The position numbers and the translations under genes are program-made. This document shows, piece by piece, positions 5,778-40,524 of a stretch of 64,000 nt of DNA. The DNA is from Zymomonas mobilis subsp. pomaceae ATCC 29192 (GTDB lineage: Bacteria; Pseudomonadota; Alphaproteobacteria; Sphingomonadales; Sphingomonadaceae). Numbering within the stretch: the first letter of the stretch is position 1; each line of letters starts with the position of its first letter. The notes beneath the pieces were generated by a model. It searched no databases, was not told the DNA's origin, and was given only the letters and a program-made list of their open reading frames with translations. The stretch is taken from positions 62,001-126,000 of the forward strand of contig NC_015709.1 in assembly GCF_000218875.1 (NCBI RefSeq), read 5' to 3'.

Positions 5778-6215
5778 AAAGCTTTCGATAGGGAGGGATA
5801 AGCATCCTGTCCAGATGCTTCCTTTAAGAAGGCGCTTTATCTTAAAAAATCTGTAAAAATTTTACGAAGGAAAGCCTTATTATTTTTACTTTTAACCTTT
5901 TTTAAAATTATGCCCAAATAAATTTAAACTATTTTAACATTTTGGCAAAAATCTCCAAAATGAAGATTTCATATCCTTGGAAAGGATAATAAGTCCGCAT
6001 CGGTGCTTCATCAACAGGATAGTGATCGTTGATCGCCTATTCAAAAAATATTGATTTCAAAAACTGATAAGGTCTCTTTTTTGACAGAGAAATACCCAAG
6101 AAATTCCTGTAAATGATAATTTTTAACCTGATTAAAGACGGTTTAGTATCATGAAAAATTCCAATCTGGATATCTATGCTTTTTAAAAGGACATGATCTT
6201 GTTACGGATAAGGCT
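5778..6215. other. Intergenic region between divergent guaA and the ccm operon
   Basis: 438 bp without a gene, strongly AT-rich in its middle (about 5840-5960). It must carry the promoters for guaA (leftward) and ccmC (rightward). A TTGACA hexamer lies at 6081-6086, but no convincing -10 box follows at the normal distance. No tRNA or riboswitch is recognised, and there is no ORF for ccmA or ccmB. Confidence 0.5.
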
Positions 6216-7551: not shown

Positions 7552-9510
7552 GTGATTGCTGAATTGGGTCTTATCCTTTTATGGCTGGCGGCCATGATGG
7601 CCTTGTTACAGACAGTTTTCGGGCTGTCCGTTTTGAATAATCGAATGGAAAGGGCTTTTTATAAGACGGTTAAACCAATAGCGATTATGCAAGCCTTACT
7701 GTCTAGTATGGCATTTTTGGTATTACTTTGGCTTTTCTTGCGGGTGGATTTATCGGTTACTTTAGTTGCTGAAAATGACCATATTGCAAAACCTTTTCTA
7801 TATCGCTTGGCTGCCAGTTGGGGCAATCATGAAGGCTCTATGTTGCTATGGGTGACCATTCTTAGTCTTTGTGGTGCTTTACTCGCGTTATTAAGTAAAT
7901 CGGTTGAACCGAAATTATTATCACTCGCTCTAGGGGCTCAAGGTAGTCTGGCTTTAGGCTTTTTTGCCTTTTTACTCTTTGTTTCCAATCCTTTTTCTCG
8001 ACTAAACCCGCCGCCATTAGAAGGCTTGGGCCTTAATCCTTTATTGCAAGATCCGGGATTAGCTTTTCACCCGCCTACGCTTTATCTAGGATATGTTGGC
8101 CTATCCGTTGCCTTTTCTTTTGCCGTTGCTGCTCTGTTGCAGGGCAAGGCCGATCCTTCTTTTGCCAAAGCTATGCGCCCTTGGGTGATCGGGGCATGGG
8201 TATTTTTAACGATAGGAATCGCGGCGGGCAGCTATTGGGCTTATTACGAATTGGGCTGGGGCGGTTTTTGGTTCTGGGACCCTGTAGAAAATGCGGCACT
8301 AATGCCATGGCTGGCAGCGACTGCGTTATTTCATTCGATTTCAGTCCTTGCCAAAAGAGATGCCTTGCGCGTTTGGACGCTTGTTTTAGCCGTTACCGCC
8401 TTTTCCATGAGCATGATCGGCACTTTTCTTGTCCGTTCGGGTATTCTCGTCAGTGTCCACGCCTTTGCCGTCGATCCATGGCGCGGCAGCTTCATACTTG
8501 GATTACTGGGGCTTTATATCGGCGGTGCCTTAATGCTTTTTGCGCTTAGAATTGGCAAAATCCATCAAGGCAGCCAGTTTAATATGCCTAGTCGTGAAGC
8601 CGGATTGATTATCAATAATCTGTTATTGGGGGTAATATTGGCGGTAGTGCTGATCGGCACGCTTTATCCTTTATTTTCCGAAGCGCTTACCGGCGATAAA
8701 CTGTCGGTCGGACCACCCTATTTTAATATGATAGTCAGTCCCTTGGCGTTAATTCTGTGTTTGGTCATGGCATTTGGGCCTTTTTTCCGCTGGCGTCAGG
8801 ATCACTGGTCAAAAATACGTTGGCCTATGGTGATCGGTCTTTTGGCTTTTTGTCTGACAGAAGCTAGTCTTTGGGGGGCTGATATTTCTTTTGCAGCGTT
8901 AAGCTGGATAGCTTTTGGTATAGCCACCGCCACAGCTTTACTCAGTCTATGGCCTTTGTTTTTACAGAAAAAAAAGCTGTGGCACCTCCCACTCAGTCTA
9001 TGGGGAATGGTTATGGCCCATCTGGGTATAGCCCTCACTTTGGGCGGGATCGCCTCAAATGATCTTTTTTCCAAGGAAGTCTTAACCGCTTTGGAACCGG
9101 GGCAGCAGGCAACGCTTGGCCCTTGGCAGCTTCACTTTAACAATGTTATGCCTGCATTGGGTTCCGACTGGAGTGCGATTGTTGCGGACATAACATTGGA
9201 ACGAAAAGGACAATCCGTTACCTTAAATCCTGAACTTCGCCATTTTACTAACCCTGTAACGGATGTCAGTGAAACAGCCCTCAAGACAACCAGGGCAGGC
9301 CAGCTCTATCTTGTTTTGGGACAGCAAGGGGAGGATGGGCGCTGGCAAATACGCGGTTGGTGGAAACCCATGATAACCTTGATCTGGATCGGCGGATTTT
9401 TATCAGCGGCGGGAGGACTTTTGGTATTATTGGACAGGCTAATTAAAAAACTAAGGCAGTCTGTATTTTTTTCTCATCATGCTTATGAGAGAGAAAGGCC
9501 CAATTTATGA
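7552..9510 (+). CDS. ccmF: Cytochrome c heme lyase subunit CcmF
   Basis: A 652-aa polytopic protein that, with CcmH, ligates heme to apocytochrome c. It contains the WWD-type heme-binding segment WGGFWFWDPVENAALMPW near residues 235-252, many transmembrane helices, and the conserved SVHAFAVDP region (about 300-308). The start is a GTG at 7552: the ATG at 7550 is followed at once by a stop in its own frame, and GTG follows the ccmE stop by one base. The end overlaps ccmG through ATGA. Confidence 0.95.
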   Translation: MIAELGLILLWLAAMMALLQTVFGLSVLNNRMERAFYKTVKPIAIMQALLSSMAFLVLLWLFLRVDLSVTLVAENDHIAKPFLYRLAASWGNHEGSMLLWVTILSLCGALLALLSKSVEPKLLSLALGAQGSLALGFFAFLLFVSNPFSRLNPPPLEGLGLNPLLQDPGLAFHPPTLYLGYVGLSVAFSFAVAALLQGKADPSFAKAMRPWVIGAWVFLTIGIAAGSYWAYYELGWGGFWFWDPVENAALMPWLAATALFHSISVLAKRDALRVWTLVLAVTAFSMSMIGTFLVRSGILVSVHAFAVDPWRGSFILGLLGLYIGGALMLFALRIGKIHQGSQFNMPSREAGLIINNLLLGVILAVVLIGTLYPLFSEALTGDKLSVGPPYFNMIVSPLALILCLVMAFGPFFRWRQDHWSKIRWPMVIGLLAFCLTEASLWGADISFAALSWIAFGIATATALLSLWPLFLQKKKLWHLPLSLWGMVMAHLGIALTLGGIASNDLFSKEVLTALEPGQQATLGPWQLHFNNVMPALGSDWSAIVADITLERKGQSVTLNPELRHFTNPVTDVSETALKTTRAGQLYLVLGQQGEDGRWQIRGWWKPMITLIWIGGFLSAAGGLLVLLDRLIKKLRQSVFFSHHAYERERPNL

Positions 9511-32739: not shown

Positions 32740-33117
32740 ATGTTTGATGTCGCTCCCTCTGAACTTTTACTGGTAGCCTTGGTGGCCTTAGTGGTTATCG
32801 GCCCAAAGGATTTACCGCGTGCTATGCGTGTTGTCGGGCGTTGGATGGGGAAAGCACGAACGCTTAGCCGTCATTTTCGGTCTGGTGTTGATGAAATGAT
32901 TCGTCAGGCCGAAATGGAAGAGATGGAAAAGCGGTGGGCTGAAGAAAACGCTAAATTATTGGCCGAAAGTCAAAGTGAAGCGACCGAACCTCAACCTCAA
33001 CCCGCCGTCGTTGCTGAGACTGTGCCTGTTCCCGATCATAAAACCCCTGTTGTCTTAGAGAAAACTTCTGAAAATTCCTTGAAAGAAAAATCGGGTCAGC
33101 AGGAAAAACAATCATGA
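32740..33117 (+). CDS. tatB: Sec-independent translocase subunit TatB
   Basis: A 125-aa protein with an N-terminal helix (MFDVAPSELLLVALVALVVI), the TatB signature GPKDLPRAMRVVGRWMGKAR, a long charged amphipathic helix (EEMEKRWAEENAKLLAES) and a low-complexity tail. TatB works with TatC in recognising the twin-arginine signal. It ends in an ATGA overlap with tatC. Confidence 0.95.
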   Translation: MFDVAPSELLLVALVALVVIGPKDLPRAMRVVGRWMGKARTLSRHFRSGVDEMIRQAEMEEMEKRWAEENAKLLAESQSEATEPQPQPAVVAETVPVPDHKTPVVLEKTSENSLKEKSGQQEKQS

Positions 33118-33899
33118 GCGAAACAGAGGATATTATAGGCGTCGATGACAGTCGCGCGCCGTTGCTTGAACATCTGCTCGAATTACGTAAACGGCTATTG
33201 GTTAGTATCGTTGCCTTAGGGGCAGCCTTTCTGCTCTGTTTACATTTTTCTAGGTCTATTTTTGCGTTTCTGGTTCAGCCCCTCCTAAAGGCAGGACAGG
33301 GACGTTTAATCTATACCGATATTTTTGAAGCTTTTTTCGTCGATATTAAAGTAGCCTTTTTCGCCGCTATTATGTTGGCCTTTCCTATCATTGCCATGCA
33401 AATCTGGCGTTTTGTAGCGCCGGGATTATATGCCAATGAGAAAAGGGCTTTCTTGCCTTTTCTGATTATGACGCCCGTTTTATTTTTATCGGGTGCGGCT
33501 ATGGCCTATTATTTAGCTATGCCGATAGCTCTGCATTTTTTGTTGGGCTATCAAGGGAATATTGGTGGTGTCGAACAGACAGCTTTACCGGCTGTTGGGA
33601 ATTATCTTAATTTCGTTACAAAATTCATTTTCGGCTTTGGGGTGGCCTTTTTACTTCCACTTTTGCTGCTTCTTTTAGAACGCGCCGGTTTTGTCACGCG
33701 ACAACAACTTGTTGCAGGACGACGCTATGCGATTGTCGCGGCTGTAGCGATTGCAGCGGTTTTAACACCGCCGGATATTGTTTCTCAATTGTTATTAGGC
33801 GGGCCTTTAATCCTACTTTATGAAATGGCTCTAGTCGCTATGTGGTTTAGCGAGAAGCGACGTAATAAAGAAGATAAAGAGACCGCTTTGGTCGATTAA
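33114..33899 (+). CDS. tatC: Sec-independent translocase subunit TatC
   Basis: A 261-aa polytopic receptor of the Tat pathway. It begins with the conserved APLLEHLLELRKRLL signature (residues 16-30), has six transmembrane helices, and carries the periplasmic LAMPIALHFLLGY and the VLTPPDIVSQLLL motif near the end. It overlaps tatB and is followed by a strong terminator. Confidence 0.97.
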   Translation: MSETEDIIGVDDSRAPLLEHLLELRKRLLVSIVALGAAFLLCLHFSRSIFAFLVQPLLKAGQGRLIYTDIFEAFFVDIKVAFFAAIMLAFPIIAMQIWRFVAPGLYANEKRAFLPFLIMTPVLFLSGAAMAYYLAMPIALHFLLGYQGNIGGVEQTALPAVGNYLNFVTKFIFGFGVAFLLPLLLLLLERAGFVTRQQLVAGRRYAIVAAVAIAAVLTPPDIVSQLLLGGPLILLYEMALVAMWFSEKRRNKEDKETALVD

Positions 33900-33964: not shown

Positions 33965-34099
33965 TTATTTATGGCGTTCTGCACTATTAGCCATAGACTG
34001 CCCCGCCGAGGACATGTCCTGCCCAAAACCCTGAACTGTATTGCAGGCGCTCAAGCCTAAAAGGCTGGAAGCAATAAACAGACCTATAAGAACACGCAT
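33965..34099 (-). CDS. ecnA: Entericidin A/B-family lipoprotein
   Basis: A 44-aa protein: MRVLIGLFIASSLLGLSACN, then TVQGFGQDMSSAGQSMANSA and ERHK. The signal peptide ends in the lipobox LSAC, so Cys19 should be lipidated, leaving a mature peptide of about 26 residues. The NTVQGFGQDMSSAGQ segment matches the entericidin family (NTVxGxGxDIxxxG). GAGGAAAAG lies before the ATG. Entericidins are stress-linked small envelope lipoproteins, and in alphaproteobacteria they are often in the EcfG general stress regulon, which fits the neighbours here. It is too short for most gene finders. Confidence 0.9.
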   Translation of the reverse strand: MRVLIGLFIASSLLGLSACNTVQGFGQDMSSAGQSMANSAERHK

Positions 34100-34239
34100 T
34101 TCTTTTCCTCACAAAGCGTAGAGTTTTCTCTCTGCGCCTTCTTCCAAAAATAAATAATAAAAATCTCACAGGCTATAAAGCTGTAAGCCAAATATCATTC
34201 TTTACCAAAATTATATGAACAACGGATGATAAATGCAGA

Positions 34240-34338
34240 AAAGAGAGACCTGGAATGTCAGTGAGGGGGAGGGAAACATTCCAGGTCTTTAGCATCGGAT
34301 AGTCGGGCTAAGGGGGATAAGCCTACCAACCATCTTGA
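34240..34338 (-). ncRNA. Candidate GsrN-like general stress small RNA
   Basis: A minus-strand RNA of about 100 nt is predicted from a promoter and two hairpins. The 5' hairpin (34306-34323) is GGCT, loop TATCCCCCTT, AGCC, with an exposed run of five C. The 3' hairpin (34246-34288) has 13-bp perfect arms, AGACCTGGAATGT and ACATTCCAGGTCT, around a 17-nt loop containing CCCTCCCCCTC, and is followed by CTCTTTTC, which can terminate. An EcfG-type promoter lies just upstream. C-rich loops, EcfG control and a place beside nepR match what is known of GsrN in Caulobacter. The RNA ends are estimates. Confidence 0.6.
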
Positions 34339-34344
34339 TAAAAA

Positions 34345-34369
34345 AACTACCTTTCCAATAGAAAGTTCC
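34345..34369 (-). promoter_or_regulatory. EcfG-type (general stress sigma) promoter
   Basis: On the minus strand GGAAC (34365-34369) is followed after 16 bases by AGTT (34345-34348). The consensus for alphaproteobacterial EcfG sigma factors is GGAAC-N16/17-CGTT, so this differs at one -10 position. It lies between the stop of the histidine kinase gene and the C-rich hairpins, pointing toward them. Confidence 0.6.
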
Positions 34370-34408
34370 GTCAAAATATTTTTTAATGAAAATTATTATC
34401 AATAGTAA

Positions 34409-36058
34409 TTATGAAGGCAGAATATCAATATCATAGTGAAAATAGCCTTCATCTTCTTTGTCAGAAAATTTGCCGCCTAGTTGTCGACCAAAGGCATTGA
34501 TAATTCTTTTTATAATTTCACTATCTTTCGCTGTAGACAACTGCTTAATCGCCTCGGATTCTATGGTTAAAGTAGCCTTGGAAGAGGTCTTATCCTCTGA
34601 TGATTGGCGATGAAGCGTAATTTTCAAAGGCAAAATAATATCCAAGGATAACGCAAAATCAGCGATTTCAACTATGATAAAAGCAATAGGCATTGCCTTT
34701 TCCAAGGGAACCGAGGCATCGTCAATATCGGTTTCGACATGAAAATTTTTCGCTGTAGAAGGCAAGTTTGTTTGAAGACTGCGCACCAGATCCTTAATCA
34801 TTAAAGGAAGATCTAGGCCATAGCCTAAATCAAGCTGGTTATAATATTGCCTTTGAACAATAGCCAAAGCATCGACCCGCCTTTGAATGGCGGTATAAGT
34901 GGCCTTTTCTCGTGCCGATTGGGCTCTACGGCTATGAATACTCAGCAGACTAGCGACAACTTGAAGATTGTTTTTTACGCGATGGTGCACTTCTCGTGTC
35001 AGCATTTTTTGATGCTCAAGCGCTATTCTTAAAGCACGCTCATGAGAAGCAAGGCGTACAGCCACGTGATAGAATGCCTTGCTGACCTGCCTGATTTCTT
35101 TTGCTGCACCCAAAGAAGCCGGCTTTATTTCGCTAATTTCTCCGCTTTGTCCATAATCTGTGATGGCTTTTTGCATTCGGCGTAAAGGTCTGAGCAGCAT
35201 GTAATGCATAACGAGCCAACCGATAATAGCCGTCGAGAACCAGATAAGTATGGGTAACAAAATGAAAAATAAGTCTAATTCTCGAAAAGGGGGTAAATTA
35301 TTATCATAGATAAGGGTGGCCATACCGCCAAAAGTCGGGACAACAATAGGATGGCTATGTTTCAATAGGCGCTGTTCAGGATAAAGCAGCGGTAAAATCT
35401 GACTGTCCTTAGTCAGAAATAAGCCTGCGCCTTCAGGCGTAACCTTTTTATTTATCATCTGAAAAAGAGATTTTTGTCCGATTTCGCCAATAACAATATA
35501 TTTGGAAAGCGGGTATCGCCCCCCTAAAAAGGTAAATTGTAATTTACCTTCTTTCTCTAATATATCCACATTATAGAAATTAGCTTGGCTAGTCGGCTTA
35601 AACGGTAAGGCGATAGCCGTTTTCCCACTGAAATGCTCGCTTTTACAGACAATATGCCCAGAAGTGTCCATAAGGGCATAATCAACAAAGACAAAAGATA
35701 AACTGTAAAGATGGTTTATAAGTGGCGTGCACTGTACCGTATCGCCATAGTCGTAACTGCCTTCTTCATCCAAGGCATTACGGGCATCATATGCTAAGAT
35801 GTCGATCGCATCATCAAGCGTTCGGGCACTTTCCGTGGCGACGAGCTGCGCTTCTTTTTTAAGATTGATTCGGTACTGATGGGAAGAGGCAAAAAAAGCC
35901 TCTAGAGCGATAAAGCTGGGCGGCATTTGTGCCAGGCTCAAGACTATGAGCATCCGCAACCAAGTCGGCAATGCGACAAAGCGAAGAAATAACCTTCGGG
36001 TAAATTTCGGCCTTTTTAGTAGGATCTGCGAAGGCTTCTTGTTGAAAAATGCCTTCAT
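34409..36058 (-). CDS. HisKA_2 sensor histidine kinase with degenerate ATPase domain (PhyP-like)
   Basis: A 549-aa membrane sensor. Transmembrane helices are near residues 33-55 and 262-288 and enclose a periplasmic sensor domain of about 200 residues. A HAMP-like linker follows (PLRRMQKAITDYGQSG), then a HisKA_2 dimerisation/phosphorylation domain with EVHHRVKNNLQ at 356-366. The C-terminal ATPase domain is abnormal: the N-box reads FIIVEIADFALS (460-471), where active kinases have two Asn (here Val463 and Phe468), and G-boxes are hard to find. It may act as a phosphatase rather than a kinase, as described for PhyP, the negative regulator of PhyR in Sphingomonas. It follows nepR by 24 bp. 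Confidence 0.8.
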   Translation of the reverse strand: MKAFFNKKPSQILLKRPKFTRRLFLRFVALPTWLRMLIVLSLAQMPPSFIALEAFFASSHQYRINLKKEAQLVATESARTLDDAIDILAYDARNALDEEGSYDYGDTVQCTPLINHLYSLSFVFVDYALMDTSGHIVCKSEHFSGKTAIALPFKPTSQANFYNVDILEKEGKLQFTFLGGRYPLSKYIVIGEIGQKSLFQMINKKVTPEGAGLFLTKDSQILPLLYPEQRLLKHSHPIVVPTFGGMATLIYDNNLPPFRELDLFFILLPILIWFSTAIIGWLVMHYMLLRPLRRMQKAITDYGQSGEISEIKPASLGAAKEIRQVSKAFYHVAVRLASHERALRIALEHQKMLTREVHHRVKNNLQVVASLLSIHSRRAQSAREKATYTAIQRRVDALAIVQRQYYNQLDLGYGLDLPLMIKDLVRSLQTNLPSTAKNFHVETDIDDASVPLEKAMPIAFIIVEIADFALSLDIILPLKITLHRQSSEDKTSSKATLTIESEAIKQLSTAKDSEIIKRIINAFGRQLGGKFSDKEDEGYFHYDIDILPS

Positions 36059-36082: not shown

Positions 36083-36295
36083 TCAGTTTAGCTTTGCCAG
36101 AAGAGCCAGTAAATCTTCGGGAATGCTTTCTTCCACTGTTTTTTGGTAGGCATTCCGCAAAGCATAACCAATTGCATTTTTCCGGTCTTCTGCCGGTTTT
36201 GCCGATTCATCAGCATGCGAGGCATGGTCGGAAGAAGAAGGTACTTCCTCTGATACTGGCCTTTTATGTTTTTCTACTGTCATGCTGCCATGCAT
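36083..36295 (-). CDS. nepR: Anti-sigma factor NepR
   Basis: A 70-aa protein. Its second half carries the NepR core: IGYALRNAYQKTVEESIPED followed by LLALLAKLN, the two helices that clamp EcfG and are displaced by phosphorylated PhyR. The first half is a disordered charged region (EEVPSSSDHASHADES). In most relatives nepR is followed by ecfG; here it is followed by the histidine kinase, so the sigma factor must be encoded elsewhere. An ATG at 36283 (MTVEKHK) is an alternative start. No strong RBS is visible. Confidence 0.85.
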   Translation of the reverse strand: MHGSMTVEKHKRPVSEEVPSSSDHASHADESAKPAEDRKNAIGYALRNAYQKTVEESIPEDLLALLAKLN

Positions 36296-38256: not shown

Positions 38257-38763
38257 TCAGTGTTTTAAGACACCTTCAACAAATCTGAAACGGTGAATCA
38301 AACATTCTCCACCCCATCTAGCATAAACGGGATCGCGTTTCGCGCATATTTGCCCATCCTGTCCAGCGCGCACATAAAAGCCTGAATAAAAATCTAATGC
38401 AGGACAGTGCTCCAGATGCGCCCTTATTCTATGCCCGCCCCGTAAAATCAAATCAACACTATCTCGTTCAGACATCGCCGCCGCCCCGACATCTTCCGGC
38501 GCAATACATTTTGGCCCTTTAGATTCTTTCCATATCGTTTCTGGCGGTGGAATCATTTTACCCTCTGGGGGTAAACCTCTTGGCGGACGATCCTTCATAT
38601 TGTGCATATTAAGATGGATTTCCATAATGCCGACAGGAGGCGCGTGATGAAGAGGGGTCGCTAATACTGAGAAAGGAAGAAAGAAGAACCCGAAAGAGAT
38701 AGGGCGGAACAAGTATCCTAATCCTTTCGTTATAAACGGCATAATATTGTCATAAGACCTCAA
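38257..38763 (-). CDS. Conserved sphingomonad periplasmic protein
   Basis: A 168-aa protein with a hydrophobic N-terminal segment (RPISFGFFFLPFSVLATP) that looks like a signal peptide cut near residue 36; a start at ATG 38742 (MPFITKG) would give a more normal leader. The mature part ends in a conserved pattern: GPKCIAPEDVGAAAMSERDS, VDLILRGGHRIRAHLEHCPA, LDFYSGFYV, QICAKRDPVYARWGGECLIH. Four conserved cysteines suggest disulfides. I recall similar proteins of unknown function in sphingomonads. It is 143 bp upstream of the helicase gene on the same strand. Confidence 0.65.
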   Translation of the reverse strand: MRSYDNIMPFITKGLGYLFRPISFGFFFLPFSVLATPLHHAPPVGIMEIHLNMHNMKDRPPRGLPPEGKMIPPPETIWKESKGPKCIAPEDVGAAAMSERDSVDLILRGGHRIRAHLEHCPALDFYSGFYVRAGQDGQICAKRDPVYARWGGECLIHRFRFVEGVLKH

Positions 38764-38997: not shown

Positions 38998-40524
38998 GTG
39001 ACAAGAATTGCTAATAAAGCTGCCATAGATTCAGCTTGGAAGCAAATAAGTGATTGTCCGGAAAAAACTTTAAAACAGCTTTTTGAAGAAGACAGTAACC
39101 GCCTTGCTAGTTTGGTGGTAGAGACCGCAAGCTTGCGTTTTGATTTTTCTAAAAATCATCTCGACACGCCTAAGCTGACTGCCTTCAAAAAGCTGTTGGA
39201 AAGTTGTGATTTTGATGCAAGAAGAAAAGCTCTTTTTGCCGGTGAAAAAATCAATATCACAGAAAATCGCGCGGTAGAGCATATGGCCGAGCGCGGTCAG
39301 GGTGCCCCTGAAAGTGTTAAACGGGCTAAAGAATATCATGCCCGTATGCGTTCTTTGATCGAAGCGATTGACTCAGGTGCTTTTGGAGAGGTTAAACATC
39401 TTCTTCATATCGGTATTGGTGGTTCGGCGCTTGGTCCAAAATTATTAATCGACGCTTTGACGCGGGAAAGCGGTCGCTATGATGTAGCCGTTGTCTCCAA
39501 TGTTGATGGTCAGGCCTTAGAAGAAGTCTTCAAAAAATTTAATCCACATCATACATTGGTCGCGGTTGCCTCTAAGACCTTTACTACCGCTGAAACCATG
39601 CTGAACGCAGAATCCACCATGACGTGGATGAAAAAGCATGGCGTTGAAGACCCTCAGAGTCGGGTTATCGCCCTTACGGCTAATCCGGCAAAGGCTTCTG
39701 AATGGGGTATTGATGATACCCGTATCCTGCCTTTTGCGGACAGTATTGGCGGTCGTTATTCGCTGTGGTCTTCTATTGGCTTCCCTGCGGCTTTAGCGCT
39801 GGGTTGGGAAGGCTTTGAAGCCTTACTCAAGGGCGGTGCCGCTATGGATCGCCACTTTCTTGAAGCGGCTCCTGAAAAAAATGCCCCTATTCTGGCCGCT
39901 TTTGCCGATCAGTATTACAGCGCTATTCGCGGTGCTCAGACGCATGGCATTTTTGCCTATGATGAACGCTTACAGTTGTTGCCTTTCTATCTCCAACAGT
40001 TGGAAATGGAATCCAATGGTAAGCGCGTCGATCTGGACGGTAATCTGATTACGCATCCCAGCGCCTTTATCACATGGGGTGGGGTAGGTACTGATGCCCA
40101 ACATGCTGTTTTCCAGCTGTTACATCAAGGTACTCGTCTGGTTCCAATCGAATTCATCGCGGCTATCAAGCCGGATGATACCCTTGAACCGACCCATCAC
40201 AAAACCTTGCTGACCAATGCCTTTGCCCAAGGGGCCGCTTTAATGAGTGGTCGTGACAACAAAGATCCTGCGCGGTCTTATCCGGGTAACCGTCCTTCAA
40301 CCACCATTTTGATGGATGAATTAAGACCGGCTCAGTTGGGTGCTTTGATTGCCTTTTATGAACATCGTACTTTTGTTAACGGCGTAATATTGGGCATTAA
40401 CAGCTTCGATCAGTTTGGTGTCGAATTGGGCAAGGAAATGGCCCATGCCATTGCCGATCATCCAGAAGATGCTGAAAAATTTGATCCTTCAACGCGGGCT
40501 TTGATTGCCACCGCTTGGAAATAA
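38998..40524 (+). CDS. pgi: Glucose-6-phosphate isomerase
   Basis: A 508-aa enzyme interconverting fructose-6-phosphate and glucose-6-phosphate, which feeds fructose into the Entner-Doudoroff pathway. The family motifs are HLLHIGIGGSALGPKLLIDA near 137-156, SKTFTTAETMLN, GGRYSLWSSIG, the catalytic Glu region QLEMESNGKRVD, WGGVGTDAQHAVFQLLHQG, and the C-terminal lysine region. The start is a GTG at 38998, with TAGGAG 8 bases upstream. Preferred codons suggest high expression. A terminator follows. Confidence 0.97.
   Translation: MTRIANKAAIDSAWKQISDCPEKTLKQLFEEDSNRLASLVVETASLRFDFSKNHLDTPKLTAFKKLLESCDFDARRKALFAGEKINITENRAVEHMAERGQGAPESVKRAKEYHARMRSLIEAIDSGAFGEVKHLLHIGIGGSALGPKLLIDALTRESGRYDVAVVSNVDGQALEEVFKKFNPHHTLVAVASKTFTTAETMLNAESTMTWMKKHGVEDPQSRVIALTANPAKASEWGIDDTRILPFADSIGGRYSLWSSIGFPAALALGWEGFEALLKGGAAMDRHFLEAAPEKNAPILAAFADQYYSAIRGAQTHGIFAYDERLQLLPFYLQQLEMESNGKRVDLDGNLITHPSAFITWGGVGTDAQHAVFQLLHQGTRLVPIEFIAAIKPDDTLEPTHHKTLLTNAFAQGAALMSGRDNKDPARSYPGNRPSTTILMDELRPAQLGALIAFYEHRTFVNGVILGINSFDQFGVELGKEMAHAIADHPEDAEKFDPSTRALIATAWK

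Follow-up and report, generated by a model that had tools for sequence, protein, structure and literature searches.

A predicted EcfG-type small RNA with two C-rich loops beside general-stress genes of Zymomonas mobilis and other sphingomonads

The promoter, the RNA and their neighbors

The stretch of DNA analyzed, referred to here as the window, comprises 64,000 nt of NC_015709.1 from Zymomonas mobilis subsp. pomaceae ATCC 29192. Along its minus strand lie, in order, nepR, a gene for a PhyK-like kinase, a predicted small RNA (sRNA) and an entericidin gene, with the promoter and sRNA together occupying positions 34369-34238. The features are as follows, R1, R2 and R3 being covariance models described below.

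36083..36295, minus strand: nepR, anti-sigma factor, 70 aa (PF18557, 28.7 bits against a cut-off of 25.7; translation)
34409..36058, minus strand: HisKA_2/HWE histidine kinase, PhyK-like (PF07568, 63.5 bits; NF051872 PhyK, 93.2 bits against a cut-off of 750)
34345..34369, minus strand: EcfG-type promoter GGAAC-N16-AGTT (from sequence; a like promoter abuts 35 of 35 aligned copies)
34238..34340, minus strand: predicted sRNA of about 100 nt, ends estimated (fold z of -5.65; R2, E of 9.6e-8; R3, E of 3.9e-14)
34298..34334, minus strand: hairpin 1, with C-rich loop TTATCCCCCTTA (fold; covariation; run of at least 5 C in 35 of 35 copies)
34246..34288, minus strand: hairpin 2, intrinsic-terminator-like, with C-rich loop TCCCTCCCCCTCACT (fold; covariation; run of at least 4 C in 33 of 35 copies)
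33965..34099, minus strand: entericidin-family lipoprotein gene, 44 aa, 3' of the sRNA (PF08085, 30.8 bits)
33114..33899, plus strand: tatC, the convergent neighbor that marks the slot (PF00902, 233 bits)

An EcfG-like promoter had been proposed on the minus strand by the initial annotation and was found there, with GGAAC at 34369-34365, a 16-nt spacer and AGTT at 34348-34345. The exact form GGAAC-N16-AGTT occurs once in the 64 kb when both strands are counted, and the looser form GGAAC-N15-18-NGTT occurs eight times, the sRNA promoter among them. The Caulobacter consensus -10 element is CGTT; the window has AGTT and thus does not keep the C, but it otherwise agrees with GGAAC-N16-17-(C)GTT. 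In alignment A9, which comprises 35 copies, GGAAC-N15-18-NGTT lies directly 5' of the sRNA in every copy, against a background of about 0.2% of random 45-nt pieces drawn from the same loci. The only GGAAC-N16-17-CGTT of the window is at 38706 on the plus strand, about 290 bases 5' of the phosphoglucose isomerase gene at 38998, and through this predicted promoter general stress may feed into sugar metabolism.

The 5' end of the sRNA is estimated to lie near 34340, about 5 to 6 nt past AGTT, and the interval first annotated, 34240-34369, does contain the element but is made up of promoter plus RNA. The arms of hairpin 1 (34334-34326 and 34306-34298) enclose a 19-nt loop containing TTATCCCCCTTA, which includes CCCCC; this C-rich hairpin had been recognized in the initial annotation with a shorter loop. 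The second hairpin was described correctly, including its C-rich loop and T-rich end: its arms (34288-34275 and 34259-34246) form 13 Watson-Crick pairs and one extra G-U pair, its loop is CCCTCCCCCTC, and the T-rich stretch CTCTTTTC follows directly 3'.

A 110-nt stretch folds at -35.6 kcal/mol compared with a shuffle mean of -19.4 kcal/mol (z of -5.65), and none of 200 shuffles folded as well. In A9, 93.7% of the cells were paired (73.3% in shuffles), both-side changes were seen in 23 of 25 pairs, and the covariation score was 0.579 (0.201 in shuffles), with none of 500 shuffles as high on these measures. Helix 1 was 91.6% paired with both-side changes in 8 of its 10 pairs, and helix 2 was 95.1% paired with such changes in all 15. 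An earlier covariation test had one of five measures, that of further pair types, reached by 47 of 500 shuffles; in the A9 test none was reached. Fitting A9 to the structure of the model favors the counts of pairing and covariation, as does the relatedness of the aligned sequences; the safer evidence is the contrast with controls in which the pairing partners were slid, where only 26 to 41% of the cells were paired. The loops are kept along with the stems, loop 1 having its run of C in all copies and loop 2 in all but two.

The genes for PhyR and an EcfG-like sigma factor lie far from nepR and the kinase gene in this genome, at approximately 1941113-1942702 of the chromosome (G000:C1; 5114-6703 of locus L103). 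The PhyR assignment is based on NF006623 (358.6 bits against a cut-off of 240), and the ECF sigma factor gene adjoining it we take to be ecfG. The relatives keep these genes together with nepR and the kinase gene.

Distribution and genomic context of the copies

A BLASTN search of 59 relatives found clear orthologues only in three other genomes of the genus, which match at 73-75% identity and have the same neighbors. They retain GGAACTTTC, the two C-rich loops and the arms of the hairpins, which speaks against a chance occurrence. The four genus genomes served to build model R1, which matched 18 of 397 Sphingomonadaceae genomes at an E value of 0.5 or less. Fifteen of the R1 loci were fetched; seven of the matches lie beside an entericidin gene, and an eighth (L094) closely resembles one of these in sequence. 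The others (L091, L092, L093, L095, L097, L101 and L102) lie outside the slot and were left out before alignment A7. In several sphingomonads (L091, L092, L093, L097 and L102, near 8000-8160) C-rich-loop hairpins were observed between two genes which we take to be ahpC and ahpF; these are possibly another sRNA or a processing site in the peroxide-defense operon.

Model R2, built from eight sequences outside the genus, recovered the window RNA at an E value of 9.6e-8 in 494 kb. This is reciprocal support and not a fully independent discovery, since the eight sequences had come via R1. The second half of R2 is poor because RNAalifold mis-assigned hairpin 2 on alignment A6. Model R3, built from 14 sequences, finds the window RNA at an E value of 3.9e-14 and, at the family-scan threshold of 0.1 or less, matched 179 of the 397 Sphingomonadaceae genomes, representing 57 of 96 genera; the other 218 genomes had no match at this threshold. 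Opposite-strand matches in L089 and L154 were removed by a stricter cut-off.

Outside the family the matches are weak. A sample of the class gave matches in 10 of 385 genomes at an E value of 0.05 or less, of which three were Sphingomonadaceae and seven were weak (7e-4 to 0.034); as about 19 would be expected by chance, these seven are no more than chance. A scan of the order at 0.01 or less matched 44 of 147 genomes, 26 inside the family and 18 outside it, the latter all weak (1.6e-4 to 4.2e-3) and 16 of them in family f5. None of the five f5 loci fetched matches the stress-locus proteins, and the four in which the match was examined share another RNA that lacks a GGAAC promoter. In these (L414, L415, L417 and L418, near 5980-6160) an alike sRNA with two C-containing hairpins is seen, 3' of lepA in L415, so that the clustering of matches in f5 need not be chance. 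A scan for the promoter together with the loop gave at least 120 stretches; the 80 listed were from Sphingomonas, Sphingorhabdus, Stakelama, Pacificimonas, Hephaestia, Parasphingopyxis, Sphingosinicella and metagenome bins named only as sphingomonad, alphaproteobacterial, proteobacterial or uncultured. A search of 28 class-sample loci, two from Sphingomonadaceae, for C-rich RNAs behind GGAAC in the roughly 1.5 kb around nepR yielded no C-rich-loop hairpin.

BLASTN matches at query bases 36-61 in many genomes had suggested dispersed copies, but most of the loci inspected, with L007 and L028 as exceptions, read as antisense to DEPTNHLD codons. The 5' arm in the window (34340-34315) is itself nearly antisense, at 23 of 25 bases, to an ABC ATPase gene of its own genome (MDEPTNHLDLA). 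This resemblance is probably a coincidence, as the other RNAs of the genus lack it.

The context of the copies was tabulated for 34 loci, with L001 represented by the window and L003 left out as too short. The convergent tatC gene was present in 30 of the 34, entericidin was the next gene within 300 nt in 28, and the kinase gene lay upstream in 20; ecfG was within 6 kb in 17, every one of which also had phyR and the kinase gene. For L088 and L094, what was counted as PhyR is a match to the receiver domain. The usual order is ecfG, phyR, nepR, kinase, RNA, entericidin, tatC, from which the window retains nepR onward. Twelve copies had no match to kinase, nepR, phyR or ecfG within the distance searched. 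In this count the window was given and L117, L118, L120, L121 and L123 had been fetched around nepR, which biases it toward a stress context; in the 20 loci chosen by R3 score with their context unknown (L154-L173), tatC was found in 19, entericidin in 16, the kinase gene in 13 and ecfG in 13. The linkage to general-stress genes claimed at the outset for an sRNA gene with an EcfG-type promoter and C-rich loops is thus borne out, by NepR and the HisKA_2 kinase in the window and by ecfG, phyR and kinase genes beside 17 of the 34 copies. With the promoter abutting all 35 copies, 23 of 25 pairs covarying and half of the loci in a stress locus, we regard it as very probable, from these comparisons, that the conserved EcfG-type RNA element is real and widespread.

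The proximity of entericidin raises the question of whether the RNA is instead the 5' leader of an entericidin mRNA that starts at this promoter, with hairpin 2 acting as an attenuator or cis regulator. In L096, L099 and L173 the entericidin gene begins only about 25 to 40 nt past the matched RNA, and of 27 gaps between RNA and entericidin only 7 contained a consensus EcfG promoter, with none in the gap of the window, so that entericidin may use other promoters or read-through. However, the gaps are mostly about 90 to 180 nt, six of the 34 loci (L094, L118, L157, L167, L169 and L170) carry the RNA with no entericidin match within 300 nt, and an attenuator alone would need neither two covarying stems nor two kept loops. 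We therefore consider the leader explanation unlikely.

Relation to GsrN and other stress RNAs

The initial annotation had called the RNA a probable GsrN homologue. GsrN of Caulobacter crescentus pairs through its C-rich loop with a G-rich mRNA leader, that of katG; processing to a stable 5' isoform and an effect of Hfq are further features of it. This RNA depends on SigT, is about 106 nt long and has a C-rich loop in its 5' half and a 3' terminator; the gene is near ecfG, nepR and phyR in most Caulobacteraceae, BLASTn homologues were reported only from that family, and the sphingomonad out-group Erythrobacter litoralis had no apparent gsrN-like gene, according to the portions of PMC5869019 available to us. 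From the binding sites in Table 1 of that paper we deduced the motif CCCCCCGACTTGA. A gene of this type behind GGAAC...GTT was found once in 289 class genomes, in a Caulobacteraceae-type genome (L327), beyond phyR in the stress locus. It matches Rfam CC3552 (RF01529), a model of 106 positions, at 101.3 bits; judging from length, motif, promoter and place, we infer that CC3552 is GsrN. A query comprising this gene and 71 bases 5' of its promoter shares sequence with 37 of 60 genomes of its family, a count in which most, not all, of the matches fall on the RNA part of the query.

With L327 as the positive control, RF01529 (threshold of 50 bits) gave no match up to an E value of 10 on 34200-34400 of the window or on eight loci with sphingomonad copies, that of the window among them. 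Conversely, R3 found no match on the L327 GsrN gene and only a weak overlapping match, of 15.5 bits and an E value of 0.085, on the GsrN-like gene of L326. The two RNAs share their length of about 100 nt, a GGAAC...GTT promoter of the EcfG/SigT type, a C-rich 5' loop, a 3' terminator and a place in the stress locus, the nearness to core regulators being given here by nepR and the kinase gene in the window and by ecfG in 17 of 34 loci. They differ in fold and in position. The sphingomonad RNA forms two simple hairpins, each with an apical C-rich loop, and the second of these hairpins is the terminator. In GsrN there is a single C-rich 5' loop, which is internal, adjoins a small hairpin and is closed by a stem with the 5' end; its terminator is separate and has a tight loop. 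The sphingomonad RNA lies beyond the kinase gene and GsrN beyond phyR, and in both f70 loci a different C-rich hairpin follows entericidin. Because RF01529 has no match and the folds differ, homology to GsrN by sequence is unsupported, and the name given initially is not retained. A strongly diverged true orthologue, to which the shared length, sigma-factor type, locus and C-rich 5' loop and the overlap at L326 might point, is in our view quite improbable. Judged from sequence and predicted fold, the sphingomonad RNA is a family separate from GsrN, without an Rfam match, that probably works like GsrN.

Other RNAs with C-rich loops were seen in related loci. At 12318-12408 of L325 (plus strand) and 5223-5313 of L326 (minus strand), both from Caulobacteraceae-type genomes, a terminator hairpin with the C-rich loop ATCCCCCC or TATCCCCCC follows entericidin and gives weak R3 matches (23.1 and 20.7 bits). 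Another sphingomonad clade carries a different stress-locus RNA (L108 at 10136, plus; L109 at 10308, plus; L110 at 4005, minus; L111 at 4206, minus; L112 at 3742, minus), which has GGAAC 5' of it, a 5' hairpin with GAGACCCCCCTCCCGTCC and a tight-loop terminator, is divergent from phyR and has no R3 match. Putative GsrN-like RNAs of Rhizobiaceae, Brucella, Bradyrhizobium and Rhodopseudomonas were proposed from a sigma-EcfG site and nearness to the stress locus; compared by their description, they have an exposed C-rich 5' loop as here, and no sphingomonad is among them in the accessible text (PMC5869019). Membership in ErsA/Pseudomon-1 (RF01719) was rejected, the scores being 18.2 bits on the window and 22.4 bits on L042 against a gathering score of 50. 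ErsA is controlled by an envelope-stress ECF sigma factor.

These observations would be consistent with convergence, in which alphaproteobacterial stress loci carry unrelated sRNAs that came to share EcfG control and C-rich loops. The three RNAs of such a reading would be GsrN beyond phyR (Caulobacteraceae-type), the two-loop RNA beyond the kinase gene in many sphingomonads, and the third RNA divergent from phyR in the other sphingomonad clade; the two-loop form may grip two G tracts of one leader simultaneously, such as the two in the TonB-receptor leader described below. We put this forward tentatively.

The alternative raised with the initial annotation, that the hairpin merely terminates the kinase operon and has no transcript of its own, appears highly improbable. 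In its favor, the stretch from the kinase stop codon to the promoter shows no terminator, so that hairpin 2 probably terminates the kinase transcripts as well. Against it, the promoter stands directly 5' of all 35 copies, hairpin 1 covaries though termination does not need it, and in 14 of the 34 loci no kinase match precedes the RNA.

In the literature on GsrN, EcfG and the general stress response, Zymomonas mobilis and Sphingomonadales sRNAs, as far as accessible, we found no description of the RNA, although an unnamed transcript may exist in published tables. None of the accessible literature dealt with GsrN in sphingomonads or with CC3552 as the name of an sRNA. Two papers on sphingomonad EcfG do not mention an sRNA, small RNA or GsrN in the portions available (PMC6599016, PMC7083833), and the latter cites the non-coding RNA SuhB. 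The Zms sRNAs of Z. mobilis, some of which are tied to ethanol tolerance, number ten in Table 2 of PMC6970203, the supplement of which holds 679 candidate regions, as far as the available parts of that source go. TSS-seq and Term-seq data for Z. mobilis are named in PMC7566282 (GEO GSE139939). The sRNA is apparently undescribed so far.

Proposed function and candidate targets

We favor the view that the element encodes a trans-acting general-stress sRNA, transcribed by EcfG and pairing through its C-rich loops with G-rich translation starts, GsrN-like in action but of a separate family. In the established pathway, PhyR takes NepR off the sigma factor EcfG under stress. EcfG would then transcribe the sRNA from the promoter that precedes it in the gap between the kinase and entericidin genes, and transcription would stop at hairpin 2. 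Both C-rich loops, being exposed, would pair with mRNAs where G-rich stretches coincide with a translation start or lie close to one, with most of the paired mRNAs being repressed and some perhaps activated. Control in trans through the C-rich loops is likely, and under stress the sRNA probably adjusts how strongly other genes are translated.

To find candidate targets, AGGGGGA-N1-12-ATG was counted in the four genus genomes, giving 44, 30, 27 and 28 sites compared with 21, 7, 13 and 7 for the reversed pattern. This excess and the conservation of the sites need no RNA, because such sites are also ordinary Shine-Dalgarno sequences. Forty of the 129 sites were inspected, partly chosen for strings that recur between species; 20 of them open an ORF of at least 100 aa, several probably being internal, and five groups recur. 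One is a TonB-dependent receptor (TonB Plug domain, 82 bits), which starts with AGGGGGAATAATG in all four genomes; in the window's genome its start is near position 1842223 of the chromosome (G000:C1), minus strand. In each, loop 1 is complementary over 7 to 8 bases to the ribosome-binding site of the receptor, and GGGG lies 20 to 22 nt 5' of AGGGGGA in the leader. Duplex energies were taken from loop-only duplexes, the long-duplex calculation having given unnatural pairings, and in the window's genome the lowest-energy duplex of loop 1 on this leader is longer, interrupted and further 5' than the 7-bp site. The other recurring groups are PstB, an AaeA-like membrane-fusion protein, a protein of 253 aa and a methyltransferase-like site, the last named by reading and probably internal. 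From complementarity, the receptor is the best candidate target, and all of the named targets are to be taken as leads.

That an EcfG-type RNA with covarying stems matches 179 of the 397 family genomes suggests a post-transcriptional arm in the core general stress response of sphingomonads too, among them Zymomonas, in which stress tolerance is an industrial goal. The analysis provides a defined gene, a model to search with, a laboratory-friendly host and a first candidate for a target, and a single or repeated origin of such RNAs becomes a testable question.
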